Below, in pieces: positions 16,687 through 51,856 of a stretch of DNA of 64,000 bases. Made by a program: the position numbers and the translations under genes. Numbering within the stretch: position 1 is the first letter of the stretch; every line of letters begins with the position of its first letter. The stretch is from Chaetoceros tenuissimus. Lineage: Eukaryota > Bacillariophyta > Thalassiosirophyceae > Chaetocerotales > Chaetocerotaceae. The stretch covers positions 2,914,001 through 2,978,000 of the forward strand of contig BLLK01000069.1 of the NCBI GenBank assembly GCA_021927905.1, written 5' to 3'. The notes under the pieces were generated by a model. It was not told where the DNA came from. It searched no databases and saw only the letters and a list, made by a program, of their open reading frames with translations.

Positions 16687-18386
16687 TTACACTTGGCAAG
16701 TGACTGGGCAATTTGCGCGAACGACATAGTTTCTGCATTTCCTGGTGGTGTTTGTCGCGGCCCATGAGCAAGTTCTTTCATTACCATTTGGGAGAGTGAA
16801 GGATCCCACAGTATCAAATGGGGTACATGACGCTCCACAAGTTACAGGACAGAGATCGGAGACATTTGCCTTATTACAACGACTTGTATTCATAGATGCC
16901 CACTTACAGTGCCTATTTCTTCCGTTGACCTGAAACTTGTAGTCAACATCTTGGCAAGTGTCATCGTTGTCAGGACCATCTGGGCCATCAGGGCCATCCG
17001 ATTTATCACCACCTCCACACACACAACAAGCTTCGTTAGCTGTCTTTCCACCCATGCCTTCGAAAAAGTCACCAAATTCAGCACAGTTATTATCTTGTCC
17101 ATACCAAGAACAATCGTAATCTGCCCCATCAGAGTCATACCAATTCAAAGGGGAATCTACGCAAGAAGGTGGTGAAGGAGTAGGAGGACTTGGGGTAGGT
17201 GGAGTTGGAGTAGGAGGACTTGGGGTAGGTGGTGTAGGCGTAGGACCAGGATCATTGCCACCGCAAAAATCTGGCTTTGGCGATGAATGATCTGCACAAA
17301 TGGTTTCTGTTATCCAATCGTAACGATGTGCGACACGAGCGTAGACACCAGGCTATAGCAAGGAAAAGTGTCGATGAGATGAGATGAAAATAATCATATA
17401 TCGGAATAGTAAAAGGGTCAATTGAAGACTTACATAATTTGGATCAGCACATCCAATGCCCCACGACACAATTCCTGCAAGAACATTGTTATCAGCATCA
17501 TATAATGGACCGCCTGAATCACCTTGGCATGAGTCTTGATTTGGATCCGCCGCGCACATCATTTCATTTCCTGTGATGCCATTTCCATAAGAATTTCTGC
17601 ATTCACTGTTTGAAACGTACTTGACTTCAACTTCCTTGAGCCTGGTTGAAATGTTTCCAGTCTCAGTAGTACCGAAGCCGATAGGGTACAAATTAGCTTT
17701 TCCATTACTGTAGTACGGGGACTTGTCATCATCCAAAGGGACAGGTGTTGTTGTGACTCTAGAAGATAACTTCACAAGTGCAAAATCGTATTCTACAGTG
17801 TTGCTATTGTAGAGTGGGTCGCTGACTCCCTTGACAACTGATCTTCTCTCTCTTGTTTGACCACAGTTGTTGTTAGCCGACCAATCAGAGTTTTGGCATA
17901 AGGCTCCAATCTCAAACGCGAGATTGCCAAAGCCACCCTCTACACAGTGTGCCGCTGTTAGAACCCATTCTGGCGAGACCAAAGAACCACCACACCCCTT
18001 GAAACTGTAGTCAGATGGCCATGCCATTTTCGCAAACCACGGGTGTTTATCGTTTGGAACATCAACACCATTGATGATCCTCTGTGATTTACTTGCAGTG
18101 CTTCCTTTTGCTAGCTTCTCACTCCAAACTTTACAAATCTAAGCAAAATGATGAGAAGGTGTTTTATGTATGATACCCTAAAGAAAAATTTACTTACCGG
18201 AAGATATTTGTTATTCGGGTTTTTGCAAATGCATTTATAGTGTTCTTGGTTACTTTCGTCACTGCAATCAACTGCTGAAGAAAGGTTTCTCTGATGAGAG
18301 AACTCAATCTCAGTGTTGTCAGCGCCAGTGGTAGCAAGTGAGAGTGATAAGAATGTAACAAGTATAGCTTTCTTGAAATATGTCAT
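16687..18386 (-). CDS. Secreted trypsin-like serine protease with C-terminal ShK-like modules
   Basis: Three exons: 18198-18386, 17434-18138 and 16687-17352 (introns 59 and 81 bp, phase 0), 519 residues. A signal peptide (KKAILVTFLSLSLATTG) is followed by a pro-region, the activation site RIINGVDV, and an S1 domain with catalytic His (LTAAHC), Asp (EYDFALVKL) and Ser (QGDSGGPLYD). Asp six residues before the Ser predicts trypsin-type specificity for Lys/Arg. The third exon restores the PGVYARV segment of S1, confirming the splice. Then comes a Pro/Thr/Ser linker of repeated PPTPSPPTP type, a Cys-rich segment, a GPDGPDGPD run, and two ShK-like six-cysteine modules ending CPVTC. Chymotrypsin-fold proteases with such tails are common in diatom secretomes. 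Likely an extracellular or vacuolar digestive or signalling protease. Confidence 0.9.
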
Positions 18387-27668: not shown

Positions 27669-28675
27669 ATGGCAAACGTGAAATCGAAAACATGGGATAT
27701 CAAAATGAGGCAAAAGATTCCTTCTTTTGTTGAAACAGGATCTTGCTTTGATGCTACGAATATTGATAGAATCAAGGTACGGCTTCTTCATAATCTTTTT
27801 TCTCTTTCTGGCCTCGTCCAAAGCATGGAACTCACCAAATTTCTCAGACTCGACCTGGAGGCCATGACGCCTTACCAACAAAACCTATAGACGAAAGTGC
27901 ATTTTCCTATAATAAGAAAACGGCTCGTCGGTCACCCAAAAACTTTCAGAAGAAAAAGACTGGAACTGGAGGTACACTTGCCCCAAAGCCAGTTAGTGAT
28001 GACACACCTCCTTTTCCAGATGAAAACGTATCTCCCAAAGGTACAATCGATCGCAAGATTCGCTTTTCTGCTTTTGTAGAGAGGCCAAACCCACCAAATA
28101 CAGAATTCCGTCGCTTTTACGAACGGGGCGATTTACCTGTCCAGATTGACCATAGTGGTGTCCAGAACCGCATTGCTTGGAAAGTATCAATTGAACAGTT
28201 GGATTTTCATCATTATTTACCAATCTTTTTCGATGGATTACGTGAAATTGAAGAGCCTTATGCATTTTTAGCTGAACAGGGTGTATATGATATGATACAG
28301 GTTGCTTCTCAAAAAGTATTGCCAGTCATTCCACAACTCATTATTCCAATCAAAACTGCTTTGAATACAAGAAATAAAAATGTGATTATAAAAGTGTTGA
28401 AGGTTCTCCAAGCTCTTGTCAAATGTGATGAAAAGGGTCAAAATCTAGTTGGACAGGCATTGGTACCTTACTATAGGCAAATTTTACCAGTTCTGAACAT
28501 TTTCATTAGAAAGAATGATAATCTCGGCGATGGTATCGACTATGGTCAAAATAAGAGAGGAGACTTGGGTGAAATAATAATGGCTACTCTCGAGCAATTT
28601 GAGTTGCATGGAGGTAATGATGCATTTATCAACATTAAATATCTTGTACCAGTATATCAAAGCATCTTGAAATAA
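27669..28675 (+). CDS. PACRG: Parkin co-regulated gene protein, axonemal microtubule inner protein
   Basis: Two exons, 27669-27776 and 27824-28675 (intron 47 bp, phase 0), 319 residues. The C-terminal ~200 residues are unmistakable [99 protein letters not shown] and [18 protein letters not shown]. The N-terminal ~110 residues are lysine-rich and disordered, as usual in the family. PACRG is a structural protein of the inner junction of ciliary doublet microtubules. In a diatom it would serve the flagellum of male gametes. The intron is short for this window, but its splice is required to enter the frame that runs into the conserved domain. Confidence 0.95.
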
Positions 28676-30966: not shown

Positions 30967-33900
30967 TTAGGATCCGTAGTTAATTTCCCATTTATCCAAG
31001 GAATCATTGAATGATCCCTTTCTGTAAAATTTGACTTTCGAGAATCTTCTCTCAGTATCAAAACCCAAGTAAAAAGTCTTGTCGCCTTTCAATGTAGAAA
31101 TATAGCCTTCTGGAGTATTCACATCGTTGTCATTGATGAAAAACTTCTGGTTCTCTGGAAGAGGGTCATCGCAAGCATTGAACTTTAACTGGAGACCAAA
31201 TTTCTGCATGCAGCCATCGTATTTGGCAGCAAGAGTGAGCGAACCATCCTCATTGAAAGAAAAACGTTGCTTCTTAGAGTACTCTGTAGAACATTTACGA
31301 ATGTTAAAAAAAGAACCAACATCATAAGCGTTATCAATGGTTAAACACCAGGTAGATGTAGAGTCAAAACCTGAAAAAGAGGTGCTAATAGTAAAAGTAC
31401 GATCCGCCAATGAAGAAGGACTTTCTGAAGGAATATCTTAAGAATGGTCAAATGCAAAAAAAGGCGAAAAAATAAGAACAAGTAGAAACGACAGAACAAA
31501 GTTAGTAAAGTGTAAATCACGCAAAATAAGGGATATAACTATCCATTCTTCATTTACTCACCACTTGGTACGTCAGAAGGTACGTCAGATGGTACGTCGG
31601 ACGGAGTATCTGAAGGTTGGTCTATTGAGCACAAGTAGAAACGACAGAACAAAGTTAGTAAAGTGTAAATCACGCAAAATAAGGGAAATAATTATCCATT
31701 CTTCATTTACTCACCACTTGGTACGTCAGAAGGTACGTCAGATGGTACGTCGGACGGAGTATCTGAAGGTTGGTCTATTGAGCACAAGTAGAAACGACAG
31801 AACAAAGTTAGTAAAGTGTAAATCACGCAAAATAAGGGAAATTACTATCCATTCTTCATTTACTCACCACTTGGTACGTCAGAAGGTACGTCAGATGGTA
31901 CGTCGGACGGAGTATCTGAAGGTTGGTCTATTGAGCACAAGTAGAAACGACAGAACAAAGTTAGTAAAGTGTAAATCACGCAAAATAAGGGAAATTACTA
32001 TCAATTCTTCATTTACTCACCACTTGGTACGTCAGAAGGTACGTCGGACGGAGTATCTGAAGGTTGGTCTATTGAGCACAAGTAGAAACGACAGAACAAA
32101 GTTAGTAAAGTGTAAATCACGCAAAAAAAGAAAAAGCCGAAGAACCATTCTTCATTTACTCACCACTTGGTACGTCAGAAGGAACGTCAGAAGGTACGTC
32201 GGACGGAGTATCTGAAGGTTGGTCTATTGAGCACAAGTAGAAACGACAGAACAAAGTTAGTAAAGTGTAAATCACGCAAAATAAGGAAAATTACTATCAA
32301 TTCTTCATTTACTCACCACTTGGTACGTCAGAAGGTACGTCAGATGGTACGTCGGACGGAGTATCTGAAGGTTGGTCTATTGAGCACAAGTAGAAACGAC
32401 AGAACAAAGTTAGTAAAGTGTAAATCACGCAAAATAAGGAAAATAACTATCAATTCTTCATTTACTCACCACTTGGTACGTCAGAAGGTACGTCAGAAGG
32501 TACGTCGGACGGAGTATCTGAAGGTTGGTCTATTGAGCACAAGTAGAAACGACAGAACAAAGTTAGTAAAGTGTAAATCACGCAAAATAAGGGAAATAAT
32601 TATCCATTCTTCATTTACTCACCACTTGGTACGTCAGAAGGTACGTCAGATGGTACGTCGGACGGAGTATCTGAAGGTTGGTCTATTGAGCACAAGTAGA
32701 AACGACAGAACAAAGTTAGTAAAGTGTAAATCACGCAAAATAAGGGAAATTACTATCCATTCTTCATTTACTCACCTTGGTACGTCCAGAAGGTACACGT
32801 CAGATGGTACGTCGGACGCGAATCTGAAGGTTGGTCTATTGAGCACAAGTAGAAACGACAGAACAAAGTTAGTAAAGTGTAAATCACGCAAAATAAGGGA
32901 TATAACTATCCATTCTTCATTTACTCACCACTTGGTACGTCAGAAGGTACGTCAGATGGTACGTCGGACGGAGTATCTGAAGGTTGGTCTATTGAGCACA
33001 AGTAGAAACGACAGAACAAAGTTAGTAAAGTGTGAATCACGCAAAATAAGGAAAATAACTATCAATTCTTCATTTACTCACCACTTGGTACGTCAGAAGG
33101 TACATCAGAAGGTACGTCGGACGGAGTATCTGAAGGTTGGTCTATTGAGCACAAGTAGAAACGACAGAACAAAGTTAGTAAAGTGTAAATCACGCAAAAT
33201 AAGAAAAAGCCGAAGAACCATTCTTCATTTACTCACCACTTGGTACGTCAGAAGGAACGTCAGATGGTACGTCGGACGGAGTATCTGAAGGTTGGTCTAT
33301 TGAGCACAAGTAGAAACGACAGAACAAAGTTGAAGTTAGTAAAGTGTAAATCACGCAAAATAAGGGAAATAACTATCCATTCTTCATTTACTCACCACTT
33401 GGTACGTCAGAAGGTACGTCAGATGGTACGTCGGACGGAGTATCTGAAGGTTGGTCTATTGAGCACAAGTAGAAACGACAGAACAAAGTTAGTAAAGTGT
33501 ATATCACGCAAAATAAGAAAAAGCCGAAGAACCATTCTTCATTTACTCACCACTTGGTACGTCAGAAGGTACGTCAGATGGTACGTCGGACGGAGTATCC
33601 GAAGGTTGGTCTATTGAGCACAAGTAGAAACGACAGAACAAAGTTAGTAAAGTGTAAATCACGCAAAATAAGGAAAATAACTATCAATTCTTCATTTACT
33701 CACCACTTGGTACGTCAGAAGGTACATCAGATGGTACGTCGGACGGAGTATCTGAAGGTTGGTCTATTGAGCACAAGTAGAAACGACAGAACAAAGTTAG
33801 TAAAGTGTAAATCACGCAAAATAAGGGAAATTACTATCAATTCTTCATTTACTCACCACTTGGTACGTCAGAAGGAACGTCAGATGGTACGTCGGACGGA

Positions 33901-36900
33901 GTATCTGAAGGTTGGTCTATTGAGCACAAGTAGAAACGACAGAACAAAGTTAGTAAAGTGTAAATCACGCAAAATAAGGGATATAACTATCCATTCTTCA
34001 TTTACTCACCACTTGGTACGTCAGAAGGTACGTCAGATGGTACGTCGGACGGAGTATCTGAAGGTTGGTCTATTGAGCACAAGTAGAAACGACAGAACAA
34101 AGTTAGTAAAGTGTAAATCACGCAAAATAAGGAAAATTACTATCCATTCTTCATTTACTCACCACTTGGTACGTCAGAAGGTACGTCAGATGGTACGTCG
34201 GACGGAGTATCTGAAGGTTGGTCTATTGAGCACAAGTAGAAACGACAGAACAAAGTTAGTAAAGTGTAAATCACGCAAAATAAGGGAAATTACTATCAAT
34301 TCTTCATTTACTCACCACTTGGTACGTCAGAAGGTACGTCGGACGGAGTATCTGAAGGTTGGTCTATTGAGCACAAGTAGAAACGACAGAACAAAGTTAG
34401 TAAAGTGTAAATCACGCAAAAAAAGAAAAAGCCGAAGAACCATTCTTCATTTACTCACCACTTGGTACGTCAGAAGGAACGTCAGAAGGTACGTCGGACG
34501 GAGTATCTGAAGGTTGGTCTATTGAGCACAAGTAGAAACGACAGAACAAAGTTAGTAAAGTGTAAATCACGCAAAATAAGGGAAATAACTATCCATTCTT
34601 CATTTACTCACCACTTGGTACGTCAGAAGGTACGTCAGATGGTACGTCGGACGGAGTATCTGAAGGTTGGTCTATTGAGCACAAGTAGAAACGACAGAAC
34701 AAAGTTAGTAAAGTGTATATCACGCAAAATAAGAAAAAGCCGAAGAACCATTCTTCATTTACTCACCACTTGGTACGTCAGAAGGTACGTCAGATGGTAC
34801 GTCGGACGGAGTATCCGAAGGTTGGTCTATTGAGCACAAGTAGAAACGACAGAACAAAGTTAGTAAAGTGTAAATCACGCAAAATAAGGAAAATAACTAT
34901 CAATTCTTCATTTACTCACCACTTGGTACGTCAGAAGGTACATCAGATGGTACGTCGGACGGAGTATCTGAAGGTTGGTCTATTGAGCACAAGTAGAAAC
35001 GACAGAACAAAGTTAGTAAAGTGTAAATCACGCAAAATAAGGGAAATTACTATCAATTCTTCATTTACTCACCACTTGGTACGTCAGAAGGTACGTCAGA
35101 TGGTACGTCGGACGGAGTATCTGAAGGTTGGTCTATTGAGCACAAGTAGAAACGACAGAACAAAGTTAGTAAAGTGTAAATCACGCAAAATAAGGGAAAT
35201 TACTATCAATTCTTCATTTACTCACCACTTGGTACGTCAGAAGGTACGTCAGATGGTACGTCGGACGGAGTATCTGAAGGTTGGTCTATTGAGCACAAGT
35301 AGAAACGACAGAACAAAGTTGAAGTTAGTAAAGTGTAAATCACGCAAAATAAGGGAAATAACTATCAATTCTTCATTTACTCACCACTTGGTACGTCAGA
35401 AGGTACATCAGAAGGTACGTCGGACGGAGTATCTGAAGGTTGGTCTATTGAGCACAAGTAGAAACGACAGAACAAAGTTAGTAAAGTGTAAATCACGCAA
35501 AATAAGAAAAAGCCGAAGAACCATTCTTCATTTACTCACCACTTGGTACGTCAGAAGGAACGTCAGATGGTACGTCGGACGGAGTATCTGAAGGTTGGTC
35601 TATTGAGCACAAGTAGAAACGACAGAACAAAGTTGAAGTTAGTAAAGTGTAAATCACGCAAAATAAGGGAAATAACTATCCATTCTTCATTTACTCACCA
35701 CTTGGTACGTCAGAAGGTACGTCAGATGGTACGTCGGACGGAGTATCTGAAGGTTGGTCTATTGAGCACAAGTAGAAACGACAGAACAAAGTTGAAGTTA
35801 GTAAAGTGTAAATCACGCAAAATAAGGAAAATAACTATCAATTCTTCATTTACTCACCACTTGGTACGTCAGAAGGTACGTCAGATGGAGTATCTGAAGG
35901 TTGGTCTATTGAGCACAAGTAGAAACGACAGAACAAAGTTAGTAAAGTGTAAATCACGCAAAATAAGGAAAATAACTATCAATTCTTCATTTACTCACCA
36001 CTTGGTACGTCAGAAGGTACGTCAGATGGTACGTCGGACGGAGTATCTGAAGGTTGGTCTATTGAGCACAAGTAGAAACGACAGAACAAAGTTAGTAAAG
36101 TGTAAATCACGCAAAATAAGGGATATAACTATCCATTCTTCATTTACTCACCACTTGGTACGTCAGAAGGTACGTCAGATGGTACGTCGGACGGAGTATC
36201 TGAAGGTTGGTCTATTGAGCACAAGTAGAAACGACAGAACAAAGTTAGTAAAGTGTGAATCACGCAAAATAAGGAAAATAACTATCAATTCTTCATTTAC
36301 TCACCACTTGGTACGTCAGAAGGTACATCAGAAGGTACGTCGGACGGAGTATCTGAAGGTTGGTCTATTGAGCACAAGTAGAAACGACAGAACAAAGTTA
36401 GTAAAGTGTAAATCACGCAAAATAAGAAAAAGCCGAAGAACCATTCTTCATTTACTCACCACTTGGTACGTCAGAAGGAACGTCAGATGGTACGTCGGAC
36501 GGAGTATCTGAAGGTTGGTCTATTGAGCACAAGTAGAAACGACAGAACAAAGTTGAAGTTAGTAAAGTGTAAATCACGCAAAATAAGGGAAATAACTATC
36601 CATTCTTCATTTACTCACCACTTGGTACGTCAGAAGGTACGTCAGATGGTACGTCGGACGGAGTATCTGAAGGTTGGTCTATTGAGCACAAGTAGAAACG
36701 ACAGAACAAAGTTAGTAAAGTGTATATCACGCAAAATAAGAAAAAGCCGAAGAACCATTCTTCATTTACTCACCACTTGGTACGTCAGAAGGTACGTCAG
36801 ATGGTACGTCGGACGGAGTATCCGAAGGTTGGTCTATTGAGCACAAGTAGAAACGACAGAACAAAGTTAGTAAAGTGTAAATCACGCAAAATAAGGAAAA

Positions 36901-39900
36901 TAACTATCAATTCTTCATTTACTCACCACTTGGTACGTCAGAAGGTACATCAGATGGTACGTCGGACGGAGTATCTGAAGGTTGGTCTATTGAGCACAAG
37001 TAGAAACGACAGAACAAAGTTAGTAAAGTGTAAATCACGCAAAATAAGGGAAATTACTATCAATTCTTCATTTACTCACCACTTGGTACGTCAGAAGGAA
37101 CGTCAGATGGTACGTCGGACGGAGTATCTGAAGGTTGGTCTATTGAGCACAAGTAGAAACGACAGAACAAAGTTAGTAAAGTGTAAATCACGCAAAAAAA
37201 GAAAAAGCCGAAGAACCATTCTTCATTTACTCACCACTTGGTACGTCAGAAGGTACGTCAGATGGTACGTCGGACGGAGTATCTGAAGGTTGGTCTATTG
37301 AGCACAAGTAGAAACGACAGAACAAAGTTAGTTAAGTGTAAATCACGCAAAATAAGGGAAATTACTATCAATTCTTCATTTACTCACCACTTGGTACGTC
37401 AGAAGGTACATCAGAAGGTACGTCGGACGGAGTATCTGAAGGTTGGTCTATTGAGCACAAGTAGAAACGACAGAACAAAGTTAGTAAAGTGTAAATCACG
37501 CAAAATAAGAAAAAGCCGAAGAACCATTCTTCATTTACTCACCACTTGGTACGTCAGAAGGTACGTCAGAAGGTACGTCGGACGGAGTATCTGAAGGTTG
37601 GTCTATTGAGCACAAGTAGAAACGACAGAACAAAGTTAGTAAAGTGTAAATCACGCAAAAAACAGAAAAAGCCGAAGAACCATACTTCATTTACTCACCA
37701 CTTGGTACGTCAGAAGGAACGTCAGAAGGTACGTCGGACGGAGTATCTGAAGGTTGGTCTATTGAGCACAAGTAGAAACAACAGAACAAAGTTAGTAAAG
37801 TGTAAATCACGCAAAATAAGGGAAATAACTATCCATTCTTCATTTACTCACCACTTGGTACGTCAGAAGGTACGTCAGATGGTACGTCGGACGGAGTATC
37901 TGAAGGTTGGTCTATTGAGCACAAGTAGAAACGACAGAACAAAGTTAGTAAAGTGTAAATCACGCAAAATAAGGGATATAACTATCCATTCTTCATTTAC
38001 TCACCACTTGGTACGTCAGAAGGTACGTCGGACGGAGTATCTGAAGGTTGGTCTATTGAGCACAAGTAGAAACGACAGAACAAAGTTAGTAAAGTGTAAA
38101 TCACGCAAAATAAGGAAAATTACCGAAGATCCATTCTTCATTTACTCACCACTTGGTACGTCAGAAGGTACGTCAGATGGTACGTCGGACGGAGTATCTG
38201 AAGGTTGGTCTATTGAGCACAAGTAGAAACGACAGAACAAAGTTAGTAAAGTGTAAATCACGCAAAATAAGGGAAATAACTATCCATTCTTCATTTACTC
38301 ACCACTTGGTACGTCAGAAGGTACGTCAGATGGTACGTCGGACGGAGTATCTGAAGGTTGGTCTATTGAGCACAAGTAGAAACGACAGAACAAAGTTAGT
38401 AAAGTGTAAATCACGCAAAATAAGGGAAATAACTATCCATTCTTCATTTACTCACCACTTGGTACGTCAGAAGGAACGTCAGGTACGTCGGACGGAGTAT
38501 CTGAAGGTTGGTCTATTGAGCACAAGTAGAAACGACAGAACAAAGTTAGTAAAGTGTAAATCACGCAAAATAAGGAAAATTACTATCCATTCTTCATTTA
38601 CTCACCACTTGGTACGTCAGAAGGTACGTCAGATGGTACGTCGGACGGAGTATCTGAAGGTTGGTCTATTGAGCACAAGTAGAAACGACAGAACAAAGTT
38701 AGTAAAGTGTAAATCACGCAAAATAAGGAAAATAACTATCAATTCTTCATTTACTCACCACTTGGTACGTCAGAAGGTACGTCAGATGGTACGTCGGACG
38801 GAGTATCTGAAGGTTGGTCTATTGAGCACAAGTAGAAACGACAGAACAAAGTTAGTAAAGTGTAAATCACGCAAAATAAGGAAAATAACTATCAATTCTT
38901 CATTTACTCACCACTTGGTACGTCAGAAGGTACGTCAGATGGTACGTCGGACGGAGTATCTGGAAGGTTGGTCTATTGAGCACAAGTAGAAACGACAGAA
39001 CAAAGTTGAAGTTAGTAAAGTGTAAATCACGCAAAATAAGGGAAATAATTCATCACTCCTTCATTACCACCACTTCAGGCCGTCAGAAGGTACGCCGATG
39101 GTACGTCGGACGGAGTATCCGAAGGTTGGTCTATTGAGCACAAGTAGAAACGACAGAACAAAGTTAGTAAAGTGTAAATCACGCAAAATAAGGAAAATAA
39201 CTATCAATTCTTCATTTACTCACCACTTGGTACGTCAGAAGGTACATCAGATGGTACGTCGGACGGAGTATCTGAAGGTTGGTCTATTGAGCACAAGTAG
39301 AAACGACAGAACAAAGTTAGTAAAGTGTAAATCACGCAAAATAAGGGAAATTACTATCAATTCTTCATTTACTCACCACTTGGTACGTCAGAAGGTACGT
39401 CAGATGGTACGTCGGACGGAGTATCTGAAGGTTGATCTATTGAGCACAAGTAGAAACGACAGAACAAAGTTAGTAAAGTGTAAATCACGCAAAATAAGGG
39501 AAATTACTATCAATTCTTCATTTACTCACCACTTGGTACGTCAGAAGGTACGTCAGATGGTACGTCGGACGGAGTATCTGAAGGTTGGTCTATTGAGCAC
39601 AAGTAGAAACGACAGAACAAAGTTGAAGTTAGTAAAGTGTAAATCACGCAAAATAAGGGAAATAACTATCAATTCTTCATTTACTCACCACTTGGTACGT
39701 CAGAAGGTACATCAGAAGGTACGTCGGACGGAGTATCTGAAGGTTGGTCTATTGAGCACAAGTAGAAACGACAGAACAAAGTTAGTAAAGTGTAAATCAC
39801 GCAAAATAAGAAAAAGCCGAAGAACCATTCTTCATTTACTCACCACTTGGTACGTCAGAAGGAACGTCAGATGGTACGTCGGACGGAGTATCTGAAGGTT

Positions 39901-42900
39901 GGTCTATTGAGCACAAGTAGAAACGACAGAACAAAGTTGAAGTTAGTAAAGTGTAAATCACGCAAAATAAGGGAAATAACTATCCATTCTTCATTTACTC
40001 ACCACTTGGTACGTCAGAAGGTACGTCAGATGGTACGTCGGACGGAGTATCTGAAGGTTGGTCTATTAGCACAAAGTAGAAACGACAGAACAAAGTTGAA
40101 GTTAGTAAAGTGTAAATCACGCAAAATAAAGGAAAATAACTATCAATTCTTCATTTACTCACCACTTGGTACGTCAGAAGGTACGTCAGATGGTACGTCG
40201 GACGGAGTATCTGAAGGTTGGTCTATTGAGCACAAGTAGAAACGACAGAACAAAGTTAGTAAAGTGTAAATCACGCAAAATAAGGAAATTACTATCCATT
40301 CTTCATTTACTCACCACTTGGTACGTCAGAAGGTACGTCAGATGGTACGTCGGACGGAGTATCTGAAGGTTGGTCTATTGAGCACAAGTAGAAACGACAG
40401 AACAAAGTTGAAGTTAGTAAAGTGTAAATCACGCAAAAAACAGAAAAAGCCGAAGAACCATTCTTCATTTACTCACCACTTGGTACGTCAGAAGGTACGT
40501 CAGATGGTACGTCGGACGGAGTATCTGAAGGTTGGTCTATTGAGCACAAGTAGAAACGACAGAACAAAGTTAGTAAAATGTAAATCACGCAAAATAAGGG
40601 AAATAACTATCAATTCTTCATTTACTCACCACTTGGTACGTCAGATGGTACGTCGGACGGAGTATCTGAAGGTTGGTCTATTGAGCACAAGTAGAAACGA
40701 CAGAACAAAGTTAGTAAAGTGTAAATCACGCAAAATAAGGAAAATTACTATCCATTCTTCATTTACTCACCACTTGGTACGTCAGAAGGTACGTCAGATG
40801 GAGTATCTGAAGGTTGGTCTATTGAGCACAAGTAGAAACGACAGAACAAAGTTAGTAAAGTGTAAATCACGCAAAATAAGGAAAATAACTATCAATTCTT
40901 CATTTACTCACCACTTGGTACGTCAGAAGGTACGTCAGATGGTACGTCGGACGGAGTATCTGAAGGTTGGTCTATTGAGCACAAGTAGAAACGACAGAAC
41001 AAAGTTAGTAAAGTGTAAATCACGCAAAATAAGGAAAATAACTATCAATTCTTCATTTACTCACCACTTGGTACGTCAGAAGGTACGTCAGATGGTACGT
41101 CGGACGGAGTATCTGAAGGTTGGTCTATTGAGCACAAGTAGAAACGACAGAACAAAGTTGAAGTTAGTAAAGTGTAAATCACGCAAAAAACAGAAAAAGC
41201 CGAAGAACTATACTTCATTTACTCACCACTTGGTACGTCAGAAGGTACGTCAGATGGTACGTCGGACGGAGTATCTGAAGGTTGGTCTATTGAGCACAAG
41301 TAGAAACGACAGAACAAAGTTAGTAAAGTGTAAATCACGCAAAATAAGGGAAATTACTATCAATTCTTCATTTACTCACCACTTGGTACGTCAGAAGGTA
41401 CGTCAGATGGTACGTCGGACGGAGTATCTGAAGGTTGGTCTATTGAGCACAAGTAGAAACGACAGAACAAAGTTAGTAAAGTGTAAATCACGCAAAATAA
41501 GGAAAATAACTATCAATTCTTCATTTACTCACCACTTGGTACGTCAGAAGGTACGTCAGATGGTACGTCGGACGGAGTATCTGAAGGTTGGTCTATTGAG
41601 CACAAGTAGAAACGACAGAACAAAGTTAGTAAAGTGTAAATCACGCAAAATAAGGAAAATAACTATCAATTCTTCATTTACTCACCACTTGGTACGTCAG
41701 AAGGTACGTCAGATGGTACGTCGGACGGAGTATCTGAAGGTTGGTCTATTGAGCACAAGTAGAAACGACAGAACAAAGTTGAAGTTAGTAAAGTGTAAAT
41801 CACGCAAAAAACAGAAAAAGCCGAAGAACTATACTTCATTTACTCACCACTTGGTACGTCAGAAGGTACGTCAGATGGTACGTCGGACGGAGTATCTGAA
41901 GGTTGGTCTATTGAGCACAAGTAGAAACGACAGAACAAAGTTAGTAAAGTGTAAATCACGCAAAATAAGGGAAATTACTATCAATTCTTCATTTACTCAC
42001 CACTTGGTACGTCAGAAGGTACGTCAGATGGTACGTCGGACGGAGTATCTGAAGGTTGGTCTATTGAGCACAAGTAGAAACGACAGAACAAAGTTAGTAA
42101 AGTGTAAATCACGCAAAATAAGGGAAATAACTATCAATTCTTCATTTACTCACCACTTGGTACGTCAGAAGGTACGTCAGATGGTACGTCGGACGGAGTA
42201 TCTGAAGGTTGGTCTATTGAGCACAAGTAGAAACGACAGAACAAAGTTGAAGTTAGTAAAGTGTAAATCACGCAAAAAACAGAAAAAGCCGAAGAACCAT
42301 TCTTCATTTACTCACCACTTGGTACGTCAGAAGGTACGTCAGATGGTACGTCGGACGGAGTATCTGAAGGTTGGTCTATTGAGCACAAGTAGAAACGACA
42401 GAACAAAGTTAGTAAAATGTAAATCACGCAAAATAAGGGAAATAACTATCAATTCTTCATTTACTCACCACTTGGTACGTCAGATGGTACGTCGGACGGA
42501 GTATCTGAAGGTTGGTCTATTGAGCACAAGTAGAAACGACAGAACAAAGTTAGTAAAGTGTAAATCACGCAAAATAAGGAAAATTACTATCCATTCTTCA
42601 TTTACTCACCACTTGGTACGTCAGAAGGTACGTCAGATGGAGTATCTGAAGGTTGGTCTATTGAGCACAAGTAGAAACGACAGAACAAAGTTAGTAAAGT
42701 GTAAATCACGCAAAATAAGGAAAATAACTATCAATTCTTCATTTACTCACCACTTGGTACGTCAGAAGGTACGTCAGATGGTACGTCGGACGGAGTATCT
42801 GAAGGTTGGTCTATTGAGCACAAGTAGAAACGACAGAACAAAGTTAGTAAAGTGTAAATCACGCAAAATAAGGGATATAACTATCCATTCTTCATTTACT

Positions 42901-45900
42901 CACCACTTGGTACGTCAGAAGGTACGTCAGATGGTACGTCGGACGGAGTATCTGAAGGTTGGTCTATTGAGCACAAGTAGAAACGACAGAACAAAGTTAG
43001 TAAAGTGTAAATCACGCAAAAAAAGAAAAAGCCGAAGAACCATTCTTCATTTACTCACCACTTGGTACGTCAGAAGGAACGTCAGAAGGTACGTCGGACG
43101 GAGTATCTGAAGGTTGGTCTATTGAGCACAAGTAGAAACGACAGAACAAAGTTAGTAAAGTGTAAATCACGCAAAATAAGGAAAATTACTATCAATTCTT
43201 CATTTACTCACCACTTGGTACGTCAGAAGGTACGTCAGATGGTACGTCGGACGGAGTATCTGAAGGTTGGTCTATTGAGCACAAGTAGAAACGACAGAAC
43301 AAAGTTAGTAAAGTGTAAATCACGCAAAATAAGGGAAATTACTATCAATTCTTCATTTACTCACCACTTGGTACGTCAGAAGGTACGTCGGACGGAGTAT
43401 CTGAAGGTTGGTCTATTGAGCACAAGTAGAAACGACAGAACAAAGTTAGTAAAGTGTAAATCACGCAAAAAAAGAAAAAGCCGAAGAACCATTCTTCATT
43501 TACTCACCACTTGGTACGTCAGAAGGAACGTCAGAAGGTACGTCGGACGGAGTATCTGAAGGTTGGTCTATTGAGCACAAGTAGAAACGACAGAACAAAG
43601 TTAGTAAAGTGTAAATCACGCAAAATAAGGAAAATTACTATCAATTCTTCATTTACTCACCACTTGGTACGTCAGAAGGTACGTCAGATGGTACGTCGGA
43701 CGGAGTATCTGAAGGTTGGTCTATTGAGCACAAGTAGAAACGACAGAACAAAGTTAGTAAAGTGTAAATCACGCAAAATAAGGAAAATAACTATCAATTC
43801 TTCATTTACTCACCACTTGGTACGTCAGAAGGTACGTCAGAAGGTACGTCGGACGGAGTATCTGAAGGTTGGTCTATTGAGCACAAGTAGAAACGACAGA
43901 ACAAAGTTAGTAAAGTGTAAATCACGCAAAATAAGGGAAATAATTATCCATTCTTCATTTACTCACCACTTGGTACGTCAGAAGGTACGTCAGATGGTAC
44001 GTCGGACGGAGTATCTGAAGGTTGGTCTATTGAGCACAAGTAGAAACGACAGAACAAAGTTAGTAAAGTGTAAATCACGCAAAATAAGGGAAATTACTAT
44101 CCATTCTTCATTTACTCACCACTTGGTACGTCAGAAGGTACGTCAGATGGTACGTCGGACGGAGTATCTGAAGGTTGGTCTATTGAGCACAAGTAGAAAC
44201 GACAGAACAAAGTTAGTAAAGTGTAAATCACGCAAAATAAGGAAAATAACTATCCATTCTTCATTTACTCACCACTTGGTACGTCAGAAGGTACGTCAGA
44301 TGGTACGTCGGACGGAGTATCTGAAGGTTGGTCTATTGAGCACAAGTAGAAACGACAGAACAAAGTTAGTAAAGTGTAAATCACGCAAAATAAGGAAAAT
44401 AACTATCAATTCTTCATTTACTCACCACTTGGTACGTCAGAAGGTACATCAGATGGTACGTCGGACGGAGTATCTGAAGGTTGGTCTATTGAGCACAAGT
44501 AGAAACGACAGAACAAAGTTAGTAAAGTGTAAATCACGCAAAATAAGGGAAATTACTATCAATTCTTCATTTACTCACCACTTGGTACGTCAGAAGGTAC
44601 GTCAGATGGTACGTCGGACGGAGTATCTGAAGGTTGATCTATTGAGCACAAGTAGAAACGACAGAACAAAGTTAGTAAAGTGTAAATCACGCAAAATAAG
44701 GGAAATTACTATCAATTCTTCATTTACTCACCACTTGGTACGTCAGAAGGTACGTCAGATGGTACGTCGGACGGAGTATCTGAAGGTTGGTCTATTGAGC
44801 ACAAGTAGAAACGACAGAACAAAGTTGAAGTTAGTAAAGTGTAAATCACGCAAAATAAGGGAAATAACTATCAATTCTTCATTTACTCACCACTTGGTAC
44901 GTCAGAAGGTACATCAGAAGGTACGTCGGACGGAGTATCTGAAGGTTGGTCTATTGAGCACAAGTAGAAACGACAGAACAAAGTTAGTAAAGTGTAAATC
45001 ACGCAAAATAAGAAAAAGCCGAAGAACCATTCTTCATTTACTCACCACTTGGTACGTCAGAAGGAACGTCAGATGGTACGTCGGACGGAGTATCTGAAGG
45101 TTGGTCTATTGAGCACAAGTAGAAACGACAGAACAAAGTTGAAGTTAGTAAAGTGTAAATCACGCAAAATAAGGGAAATAACTATCCATTCTTCATTTAC
45201 TCACCACTTGGTACGTCAGAAGGTACGTCAGATGGTACGTCGGACGGAGTATCTGAAGGTTGGTCTATTGAGCACAAGTAGAAACGACAGAACAAAGTTG
45301 AAGTTAGTAAAGTGTAAATCACGCAAAATAAGGAAAATAACTATCAATTCTTCATTTACTCACCACTTGGTACGTCAGAAGGTACGTCAGATGGAGTATC
45401 TGAAGGTTGGTCTATTGAGCACAAGTAGAAACGACAGAACAAAGTTAGTAAAGTGTAAATCACGCAAAATAAGGGAAATAACTATCAATTCTTCATTTAC
45501 TCACCACTTGGTACGTCAGAAGGTACGTCAGATGGTACGTCGGACGGAGTATCTGAAGGTTGGTCTATTGAGCACAAGTAGAAACGACAGAACAAAGTTA
45601 GTAAAGTGTAAATCACGCAAAAAAGAAAAACTAACCATTCTTCATTTACTCACCACTTGGTACGTCAGAAGGTACGTCAGATGGTACGTCGGACGGAGTA
45701 TCTGAAGGTTGGTCTATTGAGCACAAGTAGAAACGACAGAACAAAGTTAGTAAAGTGTAAATCACGCAAAATAAGGGAAATTACTATCAATTCTTCATTT
45801 ACTCACCACTTGGTACGTCAGATGGTACGTCGGACGGAGTATCTGAAGGTTGGTCTATTGAGCACAAGTAGAAACGACAGAACAAAGTTAGTAAAGTGTA

Positions 45901-48103
45901 AATCACGCAAAATAAGGGAAATAACTATCCATTCTTCATTTACTCACCACTTGGTACGTCAGAAGGTACGTCAGATGGTACGTCGGACGGAGTATCTGAA
46001 GGTTGGTCTATTGAGCACAAGTAGAAACGACAGAACAAAGTTAGTAAAGTGTAAATCACGCAAAAAACAGAAAAAGCCGAAGAACTATCTTTCATTTACT
46101 CACCACTTGGCATATCACTTGGACTTTGACTTTCTACAATTGCTGCTGTTGCCGCATATCCTGTGTCTTGTGACACAGCATCAGAGACTGCTGTCAGTTT
46201 TTTTGCACTTTCTGCATCTGATGTCTCTAAAGGAACTGTAAAAGTTGTTGTAGCTTCCACTGGACCTTCTTCCAAACGTCTATTTCTTCTTGTCGTTCCG
46301 ATGGTAGTGCTCACTAAGTTTACAACCATATCTCCTAATGTCAATGGCGCATATCCTTTTCTAAGTCCACTCTCAATACCCTCTTTTAGTGTAGTTTGCT
46401 CACTTTCATTCAAGTCACTTAATTTCACGTCTGTGAATCTAATTACAAGTTGAAGGGCATTAGGTGTGGCAAGTGTTGGTAACAAAGATACAGATGGTGT
46501 GGTCGAAGGTATGGAAGATGGACTTAGAGATGGGACATTGGACGGCATTCTACTAATCTCTGTTTGTTCCACGATTCGAACATGACCTTCATAGTAACTG
46601 TCTGAGCCAGAATTGAAAGTAGGTCCACCAAGCACAATCCTTTCACCTGTTTTACTCATAGCAAGGCTCTTTCCTAAACTCATGTTGCTACTGCCTTCTA
46701 TTTCTGAAGCAACCTCGGTCCATTGAGGGGTTTCACTAGTAGTGTCTGCTTCATAGAGGCGAGCGTGACCATGATAGTATGCACCATGGTTTGGAGCTCC
46801 GATAACGACACGAATTTTGTTGTCGTCGGTAAGGTCACTGATGTCTAGACTGTATCCAAAGTAATCGCCGACGTAATAAGCACTCTCCGACTCGCCTTGC
46901 TCACCAATGATTGGCGCCCCACCAAACTGAGCATAAGAAGAACCATTCCATTTGTACACCCGGACAAGACCGGCATTGGTACCTGTTGAGGGCGAATGAT
47001 CGTACTTGATAGCTCCAACAGCGATGTAAGTGGCATCGTTATTGATTGCAACGCTACTTCCAAATTCATCCCCAGCTGCATCACCATGAAGAACTTTCCT
47101 TAGTGACCAGGAACTAGAACCTGAGACAAAACAGTAGATAGAAGCTGACCCCATCTGGAGTGCACTATCATTAGCACCATCATCACCAGTAGATCCAAAG
47201 ATAAGACAGTCTCCATCACCAGAAATCATCACAGAGCTTCCAGTATGGTCTCCACTGGATGTTCCCGGAATGACACTTCCCTTTGAAGTAACAGTAGCAA
47301 CACCGTTGCTAGTAGAAGCAATAGTTTTGACAAGGATACGACCAATGTCCTGAGAACCAGTAGTATCGTAGTACCTTTCACCAATAGCCAGAGTCGAGCC
47401 AGTAGCATCAAAAGAAACTTTTAGACCAAGCTTCGGTCCACCACCACCTGGACTTTCCTCGTAGGGAGTAGCGATTTTGGCCCAGTCGGTAGAAGTACTA
47501 GTAAGGTCATGCTCAAATATTTCTACAACTCCTTCTTCGCTTACGTTTGAATCACCTCTATTCGGAGAGTGAACATTAGCGATAGCTAGCCTCTTACCAT
47601 CCTTACTGATACTAACGTGAGCTCTTGCATCCTCTCTCCATTCAACATCATCAGATCCTTTAATGTCACTTCCGACTTTCTCCCAGTTACCATTGGCTCC
47701 TTCCTTCCAAACTTGGACAAGGTAATGGAATAGATCTGCTGTTGAATCGCTCTCCTCAATTGCACTGATAGCAACTACAGTACCATCACCACTGATATCA
47801 ACAGAAGTTCCAAACTCTTCCTCTGTATCGTTTGCAGCAGTGAAGGTTGCAAGCTGATGGAAATATGCAGTTCCTGGAGCCTGAGTCTGGAGAGCACGAG
47901 TGATACTGGATTCAAAGACGAACTGGAAAGTGTTTTGATGTGAATAATGAGACCTCAACATAAGTGTTTCAAAACAATTCAAAGAATGAAGCATGTGTAC
48001 TTACCTTGTGATCAGATTGGCCACTGATGTTGTCTGCAGTATCTGCTCCTGCACAGGCTTTGATGATGAGTGTAAAGCAAATGAAAAGTAATCCTCTCTT
48101 CAT
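30967..48103 (-). CDS. Giant secreted surface protein gene with 95 tandem PSD-repeat exons
   Basis: Exon 1 is 48005-48103 (signal peptide MKRGLLFICFTLIIKACAGA). Exon 2 is 46104-47922: an FG-GAP/beta-propeller-like region with repeats such as GTSVDISGDGTVVAIS, GSSVAINNDATYIAVGA and GYSLDISDLTDDNKIRVVIGA, a Ser/Pro hinge, then a ~120-residue domain from ALQLVIRFTDVKLSDL, ending QSPSDMPS. Then come 95 repeat exons (31562-46007) and the last exon 30967-31436, starting DIPSESPSSLADRTFTI, with WCLTIDNAYDVGSFFNIRKC; it may be a lectin-like beta-trefoil (low certainty). All junctions inside the array are phase 1 and consistent with exons 2 and 98. Expected product is about 2,650 residues. PSDxPS runs are typical of diatom secreted proteins, so a cell-wall or adhesive role is likely. 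The exon at 39071-39130 has an in-frame TGA and the one at 38912-38972 an extra base; both look like local sequence errors but could truncate the protein. Confidence 0.85.
31562..46007 (-). repeat. Tandem array of 95 exon-intron units (~153 bp each)
   Basis: I counted 95 units by locating the acceptor end of every exon. Each holds a 60-nt exon encoding DQPSDTPSDVPSDVPSDVPS in phase 1 (11 exons are 48 nt, one is 57 and one is 61) and an intron mostly of 93 nt, with 95-, 99- and 102-nt variants. Every intron begins GTGAGTAAATGAAG (one local exception near 39,060), contains TACTAAC about 34 nt before its end, and ends CTCAATAG or a close variant. Unit spacing is 141, 147, 153, 155, 159 or 162 bp. 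Differences between exons are almost all synonymous (GTA to GTT, GAC to GAT, TCA to TCG). Larger blocks recur with exact offsets: 32.9-33.9 kb at +3,223 bp; 39.2-40.1 kb at +5,202; 34.8-35.9 kb at +9,506; 31.7-32.8 kb at +11,344; 40.4-41.1 kb at +1,839. Confidence 0.95.
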
Positions 48104-48209: not shown

Positions 48210-49879
48210 TTTGATTTTGAATTTCAATCTCCTTTATTTAGTATGTGTTGATTTTATGATATTCCACTTATTGGCTAGATTTCAGTAGGTGTTCCACACT
48301 CATGCAGAATTTTTCCTCAACATCTGCAGGAATTCAGTCTTCAATTGCTCGTCGGAAGATCTATTTGTACATTGACAAAAATTTGTCATATATCGGAGTT
48401 TCGGAGAATTATTTGGTACGTATTTAAAAGATTTGAAATTACAAAATTGACCAATCATTTGCAGCGAGCAGGCCACTCCAGTTACTTTTCCTTCCTTACA
48501 GGATATGTGAGAAAAGACAAATACTTCATGAAGTATTGGAAATCTAACATCCAACATTCCAACTCCGAGCTCTGGGACTTTTGGATGATTCCACTTCATT
48601 GCAGACAAAAAGCCTAATGCGTTTGTAAGGTATGGAAAGTCTAGAGTTACGCAGTAGAGTGATACGTACAATAGAAATTTGTTCTTTTCATTGAAAGTAG
48701 TATTTTACGTAAGCTAAACCAATACGAGTAGGTACTAATAAGTATGTGTATTGGTCTATGTAAGGTACATGTGTATCGGAAAAAAATTCTTTACGGGATT
48801 TTTTCAATACTTCATGCAACCTACTCTTCTGCTGACGTGAGCGACACGTAAGAGCTCGGAGTCGCCACGCAAGATCTGCGTCAGATTCTCAGACCTATTT
48901 AGCAGGTTCGGTAGAAAATATCAGCTGGTACGATGATATTATTTGATAATCTTCTTCAATGTTTCCTTACGGATGCTTTAAAAATAATACGTATAGCAGT
49001 GCTTGAATATAACGTTAGGACAAACTAGCCTAGCTTATCTGATATGTACATTGAAAAAAATTGATTTCTCATCTTCAAGTTTTCCTTACAGAAACGTTTT
49101 TGAAAATAATACTTATAGGTTTAAAACTTCCCAAGGGCTGAACCTTCCCAACAGATTAAAACTTACGTAAGCACAAACAATACTGTATGAAGTATTCAAA
49201 TACTGACTCAGTTTTTGGTGAACTGACGAAGAATATTTGTGCGAGCGACCCGGAAGAAATGCGGAAGAAATGCGGAAGAAGCTTTAATCCCTCCAGACGA
49301 GTGCTGTTTGTATGAGCCAAGAAAAGTGCCAATCTGTTAAAATATACGTACTTAGTAATGCAACTTGGCTTGATTACTATGTGCAGCCAACTTTGCTAAC
49401 GACGACTTTTCGATCTCTATTATTGGGATATAGGGCATGCATGCAATATTCTTTTTGATGTTGTCTTGTAAGGTAGACTAGCTAGAAGTATGTTTTTTGA
49501 CAATCTTTTTGTTTTGAAAAGCATCGCGTCTGTCTGTCTCGTCTGTCCTCATTGGATTAGCTGAATAGATAGGAAGGGGAAGTAAAGAAAGAAAAATTTA
49601 CTAACTTTGATAGCAATGTTTCTAGCCATTTTGAATAATTTGTGCAAATGAAAATAAACCGAGCAAACGATACAAATACGTACAATGATGATGGATGATG
49701 ATTTTAGAGCAAAGATGGATGTACTATGATGAATAGTTATCGAATAAGTGCTACTACTGTCCAAAGTCAAAAGGTACTCATAGCCCTACAATCATCTACC
49801 TTCACCAAAGTACCTATTGCTTGAACTTAAACAGCAAAATTTTAATAACTCTTTTCTAAATTTTCAGAGAATCAAAATA
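48210..49879. other. Intergenic 1.7 kb, no convincing gene
   Basis: This divergent region lies between the giant gene and the GT49-like gene. A 123-codon minus-strand frame (48300-48671) has no recognisable domain and I do not call it. A diverged direct repeat of about 45 bp occurs near 48955-49005 and 49073-49120 (shared TCTTCAA, TTTCCTTAC, AAAATAATAC and TATAG blocks). A short triplication GCGGAAGAA lies near 49260. Promoters for both flanking genes should be here. Confidence 0.5.
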
Positions 49880-51856
49880 ATGATTTCAAGATGGAAAAAA
49901 GGGAAAACATCAAAAGAATCCATTTTGCCAAAAACACATCACGATGTGGAATCCAAAACTCCTGATTCGAGTACGAGCAAGGCTTCAAAGTCGAAACCAA
50001 AATTTTATTCAAATGGAAGCAGTAGCCGAAATAATGATGCTGGTCACAAACATCCCATTCAAGCAAATTACAGGTCACCTAAACCTGGATCTATAAATTG
50101 TATTCCAAGACATCATGCAAACATTCATATCAATCCAAATGCTGTTGGATGCACAACTTTTCTCATGGGAGGCCAGTACTATCCAGGGAAAGACAAGAAT
50201 AGACTTCATCTCCGACGCAAAACATTATGGTATAGGATATGCTGGTCTAGTCCTTTTCGAAAAATACTTTCTGCGATCCTAGTTATTTATCTTTTAATTG
50301 TATACGTTTTAAATCCAGCATTGAACACCGTTTTGCGTTATGGTGATATGCTTTCACATCATGGGAACTATACAGATCTGGATACTATTGCGACAAAGGG
50401 GGGAGGGAAATTAGTACATTTGAAACCTCTGCATATTGCGAAAGAAGACGCGAAACATATAATGAAACGTTTGAAAGAAATCAAAAATGAAAAAATGAGT
50501 ATAGAGAAAAGAAAAGCACTGATAAAGAAAATCATACCTGAGTGGTTTCGAAAGGAACACCAGATAAGTGAAGACTTGGATATTACCGATCCAGAGGAAT
50601 TAAGCAAAGGAAAGGTAGTTGAGAAACAAGAGGAAGCTGTGGAACCTGATTTTGATGCTGTTGATCCTGACGAAGAAATTAAAACCCCTGAACTTACAAA
50701 TGAAGGATCTAGGCTCAATCAAACGGATTCAAATAGTAACATAGATGTTGTACGGACTCTACAGAATAGAGGCATTCATGCCAAGGACTCGCAATGTCCT
50801 AGAGGAGTAGAAGACATATCCACCACTCTTGTCATACAATCGACTCTCGACCGAGTTAGGCTAATTTTCACGACTTGCCAAATATGGAGAGATCCAATAA
50901 ATCTCGTCGTGTACTTGAGTTCAGAAGAGTACACCAGCAATGATTGGGACAAATTGAAAGAGGAATTAAAGAATGTATGCCCACATGTAAAAATTATTGT
51001 TTATCATTCCAAATCAAGCAACGAAAGACGCTTGGAATATCCAATTAACAAACTACGAAATATCGGTTTGGATCATGTCATCACAAGTCATATACTAGTC
51101 ATGGATATTGATTTTATTCCCTCAGAAAGATTAGATAACGCAGTTCATAAAGCCATTGACTTGAGTATCGAAGCTAGGATGGACGACGATGGGAATAGAG
51201 GCGTTGACCCCAAAGATGCTTTGGTGATACCTGCATTTGAACGCAAATTACCACCATCGGTAGAATGTAAGACACTTCAAGACTGCCAAAATATTTCGTC
51301 ACAGGATCCAACATTTATTCCAAAATCGATGAAAGATTTACTAAAGTGTGTACAAGATGGAAGTTGTATAGTGTTTCAGAGTGATGTCAATATCGAGGGT
51401 CATTTTGATACAGGATCTAAGCAATGGCTTGAAAAGAACAATACTGAATCTTCGTCAATTATCGAATGCTTTCACTCTCAAAGATACGAACCATATGTGG
51501 TGCTTCCTTGGTGTCCGCTTGAACACAATGCAGTACAGAGAATAGCTCGTCGTGTACCTAGAGCCAGCTACTACGATGAGCGTTTTTATGGCTATGGCAA
51601 GAATAAGATACAGCAAATTGCACATCTTCGTGAATGTGGCTTCAAGTTCCAAGTGATTCCAGCTACCGGGTTTTTAGTCCATCATCCACATCCAGAGTCA
51701 GAAACAAAATCAGTGTGGAATGATAAGTCCAACTTTGATTTACACATGAAAATGGACGAACTCTATCCCAAGTATTTGCAAGAACTAAGATCTGTGTATG
51801 ATGATAATTTCGTAGAAACAAAACTCTGTCAACGAAAAAGAGGGAATGAAAAATAG
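49880..51856 (+). CDS. Golgi type II glycosyltransferase, GT49 (LARGE/B4GAT1-like)
   Basis: A single exon; I choose ATG 49880 (658 residues) because the frame upstream has no ATG. A ~130-residue basic, disordered cytosolic region precedes one TM anchor (ILSAILVIYLLIVYVL). A charged stem follows, then the catalytic domain: TLVIQSTLDRVRLIFTTCQI, NLVVYLSSEEYTSNDW, EYPINKLRNIGLDHVITSHI, LVMDIDFIPSERLD (D-I-D metal motif), YEPYVVLPWCPL, YYDERFYGYGKNKIQQIAHL and TGFLVHHPHPES. These match the second GT domain of LARGE, which adds glucuronic acid or related sugars in the Golgi. The cytosolic tail is much longer than in animals. Likely role in cell-wall or mucilage polysaccharide or glycoprotein synthesis. 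Confidence 0.85.
   Translation: MISRWKKGKTSKESILPKTHHDVESKTPDSSTSKASKSKPKFYSNGSSSRNNDAGHKHPIQANYRSPKPGSINCIPRHHANIHINPNAVGCTTFLMGGQYYPGKDKNRLHLRRKTLWYRICWSSPFRKILSAILVIYLLIVYVLNPALNTVLRYGDMLSHHGNYTDLDTIATKGGGKLVHLKPLHIAKEDAKHIMKRLKEIKNEKMSIEKRKALIKKIIPEWFRKEHQISEDLDITDPEELSKGKVVEKQEEAVEPDFDAVDPDEEIKTPELTNEGSRLNQTDSNSNIDVVRTLQNRGIHAKDSQCPRGVEDISTTLVIQSTLDRVRLIFTTCQIWRDPINLVVYLSSEEYTSNDWDKLKEELKNVCPHVKIIVYHSKSSNERRLEYPINKLRNIGLDHVITSHILVMDIDFIPSERLDNAVHKAIDLSIEARMDDDGNRGVDPKDALVIPAFERKLPPSVECKTLQDCQNISSQDPTFIPKSMKDLLKCVQDGSCIVFQSDVNIEGHFDTGSKQWLEKNNTESSSIIECFHSQRYEPYVVLPWCPLEHNAVQRIARRVPRASYYDERFYGYGKNKIQQIAHLRECGFKFQVIPATGFLVHHPHPESETKSVWNDKSNFDLHMKMDELYPKYLQELRSVYDDNFVETKLCQRKRGNEK

Follow-up and report, generated by a model that had tools for sequence, protein, structure and literature searches.

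A minus-strand gene of Chaetoceros tenuissimus probably built from about 95 duplicated exon–intron units

A window of 64,000 nucleotides (nt) from the diatom Chaetoceros tenuissimus (contig BLLK01000069.1, positions 2,914,001 to 2,978,000; all positions below are counted within this window) contains a long array in which a sequence of about 153 bp recurs some 95 times. The locus raises the question of whether each unit is a whole exon together with a whole intron of one gene, or whether the array is a coding repeat of the opposite strand, a decaying satellite or, in its copy number, a product of assembly. We conclude with high confidence that it is a minus-strand protein-coding gene in which about 95 duplicated exon–intron units contribute to a secreted three-part protein. 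The anatomy of the locus, its phase, the pattern of its substitutions and lengths and the pattern of block duplication were observed directly.

The predicted gene model runs on the minus strand from an ATG at 48103 to a TAA at 30967 and comprises 98 exons and 97 introns, with two 5′ exons (99 nt and 1,819 nt), 95 array exons and one 3′ exon (470 nt). Its parts, and one open frame of the opposite strand, are as follows.

48005..48103, minus strand: exon 1, 99 nt, with the start codon and a hydrophobic, signal-peptide-like N-terminus MKRGLLFICFTLIIKACAGA (signal peptide judged by eye)
47923..48004, minus strand: intron 1, 82 nt, GTAAGT...CAG, differing from the array type
46104..47922, minus strand: exon 2, 1819 nt, with an FG-GAP_2 repeat domain, then a PS-rich linker and a further stretch, ending ...PSDMPS/G in phase 1
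46963-47079, minus strand: best FG-GAP_2 stretch in exon 2 (PF14312, E 2.7e-13)
31437..46103, minus strand: array, 95 exons alternating with 96 introns, unit about 153 bp
45948..46007, minus strand: first array exon, 60 nt, typical, peptide DQPSDTPSDVPSDVPSDVPS
39071..39130, minus strand: array exon 46, damaged, with several private changes and an in-frame stop; the donor after it is GTGGTA
38912..38972, minus strand: array exon 47, 61 nt, one base extra, a frame shift if included
38456..38512, minus strand: array exon of 57 nt, one codon short, in frame
32776..32835, minus strand: array exon 87, peptide scrambled, length still 60 nt
31562..31621, minus strand: last array exon, 60 nt
31437..31561, minus strand: last intron, 125 nt, array-like in its 5′ part and branch site but not in its 3′ part, acceptor AAG
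30967..31436, minus strand: last exon, 470 nt, a C-terminal domain with weak Ricin_B_lectin (beta-trefoil) similarity, ending in TAA
40270..43110, plus strand: longest spurious open frame in the array, 946 codons, coding not supported

Tandem Repeats Finder reports a single array at 31478-46065 (period 153, 95.3 copies, score 24,548), and both its count and the gene model agree with the 95 units, 98 exons and 97 introns of the original prediction, which was made from the same DNA. The repeat unit is a whole exon plus a whole intron, with 95 exons and 96 array-type introns, and the array and both flanking coding exons share phase 1.

The array exons are highly uniform. The prediction of a 60-nt exon in every unit holds for 82 of the 95, whereas 11 exons are 48 nt long (of three kinds), one is 57 nt and one is 61 nt. 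The peptide DQPSDTPSDVPSDVPSDVPS is encoded by 80 of the 95; one DVPS is missing from 11 and one Ser from another, and the remaining three are damaged or frame-shifted. Intron lengths are similarly concentrated: among all 97 introns, 60 measure 93 nt, 14 measure 95 nt, 10 measure 99 nt, four measure 102 nt and two measure 96 nt, with seven others, and the 95 array introns that precede the last one span 89–102 nt. The splice signals had been described as GTGAGT, TACTAAC and TAG throughout, which is nearly correct. Donor GTGAGT and branch site TACTAAC are each found in 95 of the 96 array-type introns (94 of the 95 before the last, plus the last), the exceptions being one GTGGTA and one AACTAAC, and the acceptors are TAG except for the AAG of the last intron. 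With gaps counted, mean pairwise identity is 93.5% among the 95 exons and 92.1% among the 95 introns, the latter comprising 29 distinct sequences. Sixteen array introns, such as the one after the exon ending at 45205, carry a 6-nt insertion by the branch site (TACTAACTTCAACTTTG), which moves the acceptor 6 nt farther away and leaves TACTAAC intact.

One indication of the coding strand comes from substitutions that recur among units. Across 79 of the 95 exons (a set without units 46, 47, 49 and 87 or any 48- or 57-nt exon; unit 49 equals the consensus), five substitutions recur and every one is synonymous on the minus strand, a class to which 46 of 180 possible changes (25.6%) belong there. By arithmetic, five of five has a chance probability of about 0.001 if the events are independent, and of about 0.004 when the substitution that agrees with an adjacent 12-nt sub-repeat is omitted. 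The same substitutions bear on the idea that the array is instead translated from the plus strand, into a tandem-repeat protein with a period of 51 residues. The 153-nt consensus does have one plus frame without a stop, and 19 open frames of at least 110 codons, the longest of 946, lie in or overlap the array between 31442 and 46241. In that only open plus frame, however, none of the five exon substitutions is synonymous, and two of the seven that recur in introns are. The 95 array introns before the last include 19 whose length is not divisible by 3, which would shift that frame, and each plus frame meets 166–290 stops across the array. Plus-strand coding was rejected by the synonymous test, and we give it almost no credence.

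Lengths and signals on the minus strand agree with splicing. The lengths of 76 of the 97 introns are divisible by 3 and those of 21 are not, whereas array exon lengths vary by 12 or 3 nt with the 61-nt exon as the sole exception. The sound exons consist of whole codons in one phase, so that gain, loss or skipping of units would alter stalk length alone, whereas retaining any one of the 96 array introns introduces an in-frame stop. In addition, all 96 array-type introns contain CTAAC, and the first AG downstream of it is the predicted acceptor in every case, the last intron included. Candidate introns of neighbouring genes, obtained by joining open frames (n = 13), are 61–116 nt long with donors GTGAGT, GTAAGT or GTAAGA, and CTAAC stands near the acceptor in 5 of the 13 (5 of 18 counting those dropped) versus 29 of 2,353 control [CT]AG sites. 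For this comparison 13 of 18 donor positions were kept by judgement, and donors with more than one acceptor were represented by their shortest intron; the five dropped positions (6663, 20374, 51796 and 53841 on the plus strand and 28007 on the minus strand) have no CTAAC in their printed tails. Taken together, the synonymous-only recurrent exon changes, the introns of non-triplet length, the AG-free stretches between branch site and acceptor and the similar signals of candidate neighbouring introns support minus-strand splicing of the array, and with it the exon-plus-intron organisation originally proposed. Each ~93-nt intron would then be a normal spliceosomal intron, presumably removed by intron definition through GTGAGT, TACTAAC and the first AG downstream.

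As assembled, the frame is not intact. The flanks share phase 1 and 94 of the 95 array exons have lengths that are multiples of 3, but the predicted uninterrupted 98-exon frame of about 2,650 residues is not supported by the assembly: there is a stop in exon 46 and one extra base in exon 47, and exon 87 is scrambled. The assembled 98-exon coding sequence is 7,954 nt long, which is not a multiple of 3, and its first stop follows residue 1,529, in array exon 46. Skipping exons 46 and 47 together yields an open frame of 2,610 residues that ends in the C-terminal domain, and skipping either alone does not. In an alignment of the units, 85 of 96 rows have no private column, while unit 46 has 18 and unit 87 has 11; smaller numbers occur in units 3 (nine), 47 (six), 52 (five) and 39 (four) and in units 38, 54 and 57 (one each), and the 43 of the first-intron row and 33 of unit 95 are attributed to a missing exon and a differing 3′ end. 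In units 46 and 87 the clustering resembles a local error of the consensus. The defects of exons 46 and 47 likewise resemble consensus errors, unless both exons have to be skipped.

The array might act as a splicing-based generator of length, in which exon skipping produces mixed stalk lengths in cells, a tentative and rather doubtful proposal. Each of the near-identical donors could join any downstream acceptor in frame, and units 46 and 47 would be tolerated because they are spliced out, partly by way of the damaged donor of unit 46. Keeping the intron within the unit would in that case protect the gene from faulty copies, a safeguard that a simple coding repeat lacks.

The product of the gene would be a secreted protein with three parts: an N-terminal domain of FG-GAP type, a stalk and, at the C-terminus, a domain that is possibly lectin-like. 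FG-GAP_2 (PF14312) in exon 2 scores 50.3 bits, above the Pfam cut-off of 23, whereas Ricin_B_lectin (PF00652) in the last exon (E 3.3e-5) scores 24.5 bits, below its cut-off of 29. The stalk, the product of some 95 copies of a single exon–intron unit, would have about 1,800 residues in about 450 Pro-Ser-Asp-(Val/Thr/Gln) motifs; without exons 46 and 47 it comprises 1,815 residues, namely 451 D, 451 P, 450 S, 265 V, 96 T, 94 Q and 8 others. Its likeliest role would be that of an extended extracellular spacer, probably glycosylated on Ser, which may hold a binding domain off the cell surface or wall. Pleuralins and other diatom wall proteins are likewise secreted and rich in Pro, Ser and Asp. 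The pleuralin repeat (PSCD) contains Cys, whereas the stalk described here is made of D, P, S, V, T and Q, with a single Cys in the damaged exon 87.

Searches for relatives gave little. The N-terminal part has no match in a sequence search of the PDB, and the C-terminal part met 14 polyhedrin sequences there at E 0.18–0.84, which were judged chance. No relative was confirmed in viral contigs by way of either end domain or the intron pattern, and none was confirmed in prokaryote genome contigs by way of the N-terminal part. A degenerate PSDV pattern picked out 11 viral-contig loci with short PSDV-, PTDV-, PCDV- or PRDV-like stretches; nothing else resembling this gene is seen within about 50 codons on each side of them, and some of the frames have nearby stops. 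Three of the IMG/VR viral contigs (L001, L005 and L008) share a translated stretch with a PTDV-type repeat and have no further likeness to the gene. Beside this gene for a Ser-rich secreted protein lies, possibly by chance, a Glyco_transf_49 glycosyltransferase (49784-51856, plus strand, E 1.4e-33).

Several observations weigh against a spliced, translated gene. The assembled frame is broken at exons 46–47. The synonymous test comprises five events, one of which is possibly an exchange between 12-nt sub-repeats, and recurrent substitutions are similarly dense in introns (7 of 93 positions, in the 60 introns of 93 nt) and in exons (5 of 60), so that variability alone cannot separate the two. 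Because the units are young copies of one another, their uniform signals are not 95 independent observations. The neighbouring introns are candidates from open-frame joining that were selected with the sequence in view, and the five of them with CTAAC have a shorter distance from branch site to acceptor (13–23 nt) than the array, where it is 34 nt in 79 introns, 40 nt in 16 and 66 nt in one. Finally, the AlphaFold models of both ends are poor, with predicted local distance difference test scores (pLDDT) of 34.1 for the C-terminal domain and 40.5 for the other end, and the domain calls thus stand on Pfam alone.

Some of these points would suit a decaying, satellite-like array, in which one unit of a formerly functional gene multiplied in tandem, translation was lost and the defects of exons 46, 47 and 87 are real. 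Besides the frame breaks in exons 46–47, the introns are almost as uniform as the exons (92.1% against 93.5%), as homogenisation without coding constraint predicts. On the other hand, synonymy of all five recurrent exon substitutions speaks against a lack of coding constraint, small as the number of events is, and the coding exons on either side of the array are open and keep its phase. Moreover, frame-breaking or scrambling changes affect 3 of the 95 exons, of which 46 and 87 carry the private clusters and 47 adjoins 46, and the great majority of aligned rows (85 of 96) have no private column at all. We consider decay very unlikely.

The order of the units bears on how the array grew. The 95 units fall into 42 distinct kinds in non-periodic order, identical neighbours make up 3 of the 94 adjacent pairs, up to seven consecutive units recur identically at a second place, versus at most four in 300 shuffles, and the longest exact DNA repeat in the array is 1,153 bp. 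The seven-unit runs, the scarcity of identical neighbours and the length of this repeat argue for growth by duplication of multi-unit blocks rather than unit by unit, and the growth was probably recent. Exact repeats of this length are hard to assemble, and the private-column clusters in units 46 and 87 resemble poor consensus, both of which would fit a copy number that is an assembly artefact, the true array being shorter or longer. However, 42 distinct units in non-periodic order are what read-through of a real array would yield, and an artefact of this kind appears unlikely. Duplication of several units at a time, by unequal exchange or slippage, would copy exon and intron together, so that each new copy carries its own splice signals and stays in phase 1. 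The last intron, which is array-like past the branch site and then different, marks the 3′ edge of the array. Insertion of introners into an existing coding repeat was also considered and is not favoured by the data of the window, since whole units recur in duplicated blocks and no copy of the intron lies elsewhere in the window; a blastn search of the array intron against the rest of the 64,000 nt gave a longest match of 13 bases.

Tandem exon–intron units are already known, protists included. The original suggestion that such arrays are rarely or never described in a protist does not hold in view of Tetrahymena, whose species have thousands of leucine-rich repeat (LRR) genes with tandem exons of exactly 90 bp and introns nearly all of phase 2 (PMC6564038). 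In T. thermophila the LRR unit measures about 347 bp and the number of exons per gene peaks at about 10; the arrays were proposed to grow by unequal crossing over, perhaps together with retrotransposition, the youngest genes show intragenic repeats at the nucleotide level, and RNA-Seq support is indicated by the title of a supplementary figure (PMC6564038). The array described here resembles them in being a protist series of tandem units, each of one exon of set length and one intron, nearly all in a single phase. It differs in its 60- or 48-nt exons, phase 1, ~153-bp unit and low-complexity stalk, as opposed to leucine-rich repeats with a link to retrotransposons, and in having 95 copies in one gene instead of thousands of genes with a peak near 10 exons.

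Among animals, the Argiope MaSp2 and flagelliform spidroin genes show a repetitive exon/intron pattern with small introns that, in MaSp2, are on average 97.6% alike within a gene, and the repetitive introns were suggested to help homogenise the coding repeat (PMC9779670). Near-identical introns between similar exons are common to these genes and ours, although theirs encode animal silk, an unrelated protein. The SmPoMuc mucin genes of the animal parasite Schistosoma mansoni have units of about 1 kb, no more than some 20 to a gene, with microsatellites between them (PMC2576457), against a ~153-bp unit and 95 copies here. The kringle IV type 2 (KIV-2) variable number tandem repeat of LPA, with 5.6-kb units in 1–40 copies (PMC11462820), is similar as a coding tandem repeat of large genomic units within one gene. 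Micromonas introners are likewise high-identity spliceosomal introns of a unicellular alga, but they are spread genome-wide (PMC4815162), whereas the present introns sit in one array with their exon. Relative to the cited figures for Tetrahymena, SmPoMuc and LPA KIV-2, the array has a shorter unit and a higher number, and what stands out here is this number (95), the short unit and the near-identity of its copies. Neither the gene nor a diatom counterpart is among the matches listed in the open-licence literature, a body that leaves most subscription journals outside its scope.

The domains and introns of neighbouring genes point to a eukaryote. Elsewhere in the window, a ParcG (Parkin co-regulated) protein is encoded at 27794-28675 on the plus strand (E 5.4e-76), from which the organism is presumably flagellated at some stage, and a short tandem repeat with a period of 15/30 bp lies at 17167-17245. 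ARAGORN found no tRNAs in the window, and Rfam gave no matches at gathering scores. For gene finders the locus calls for caution, as false plus-strand open frames of up to 946 codons could be misannotated.

If the gene is real, about 97 introns have to be removed correctly for one long Ser-Pro-rich stalk protein. By arithmetic, an efficiency of 99% per intron would leave just 38% of transcripts fully spliced (0.99^97). The locus would offer a natural assay of splicing fidelity, in which the introns are nearly identical and only their position and a few variants set them apart. It would equally be a natural assay of how exon–intron units spread by duplication, as a second protist case beside Tetrahymena, with units per gene far above the peak of about 10 exons in the cited account of that ciliate.

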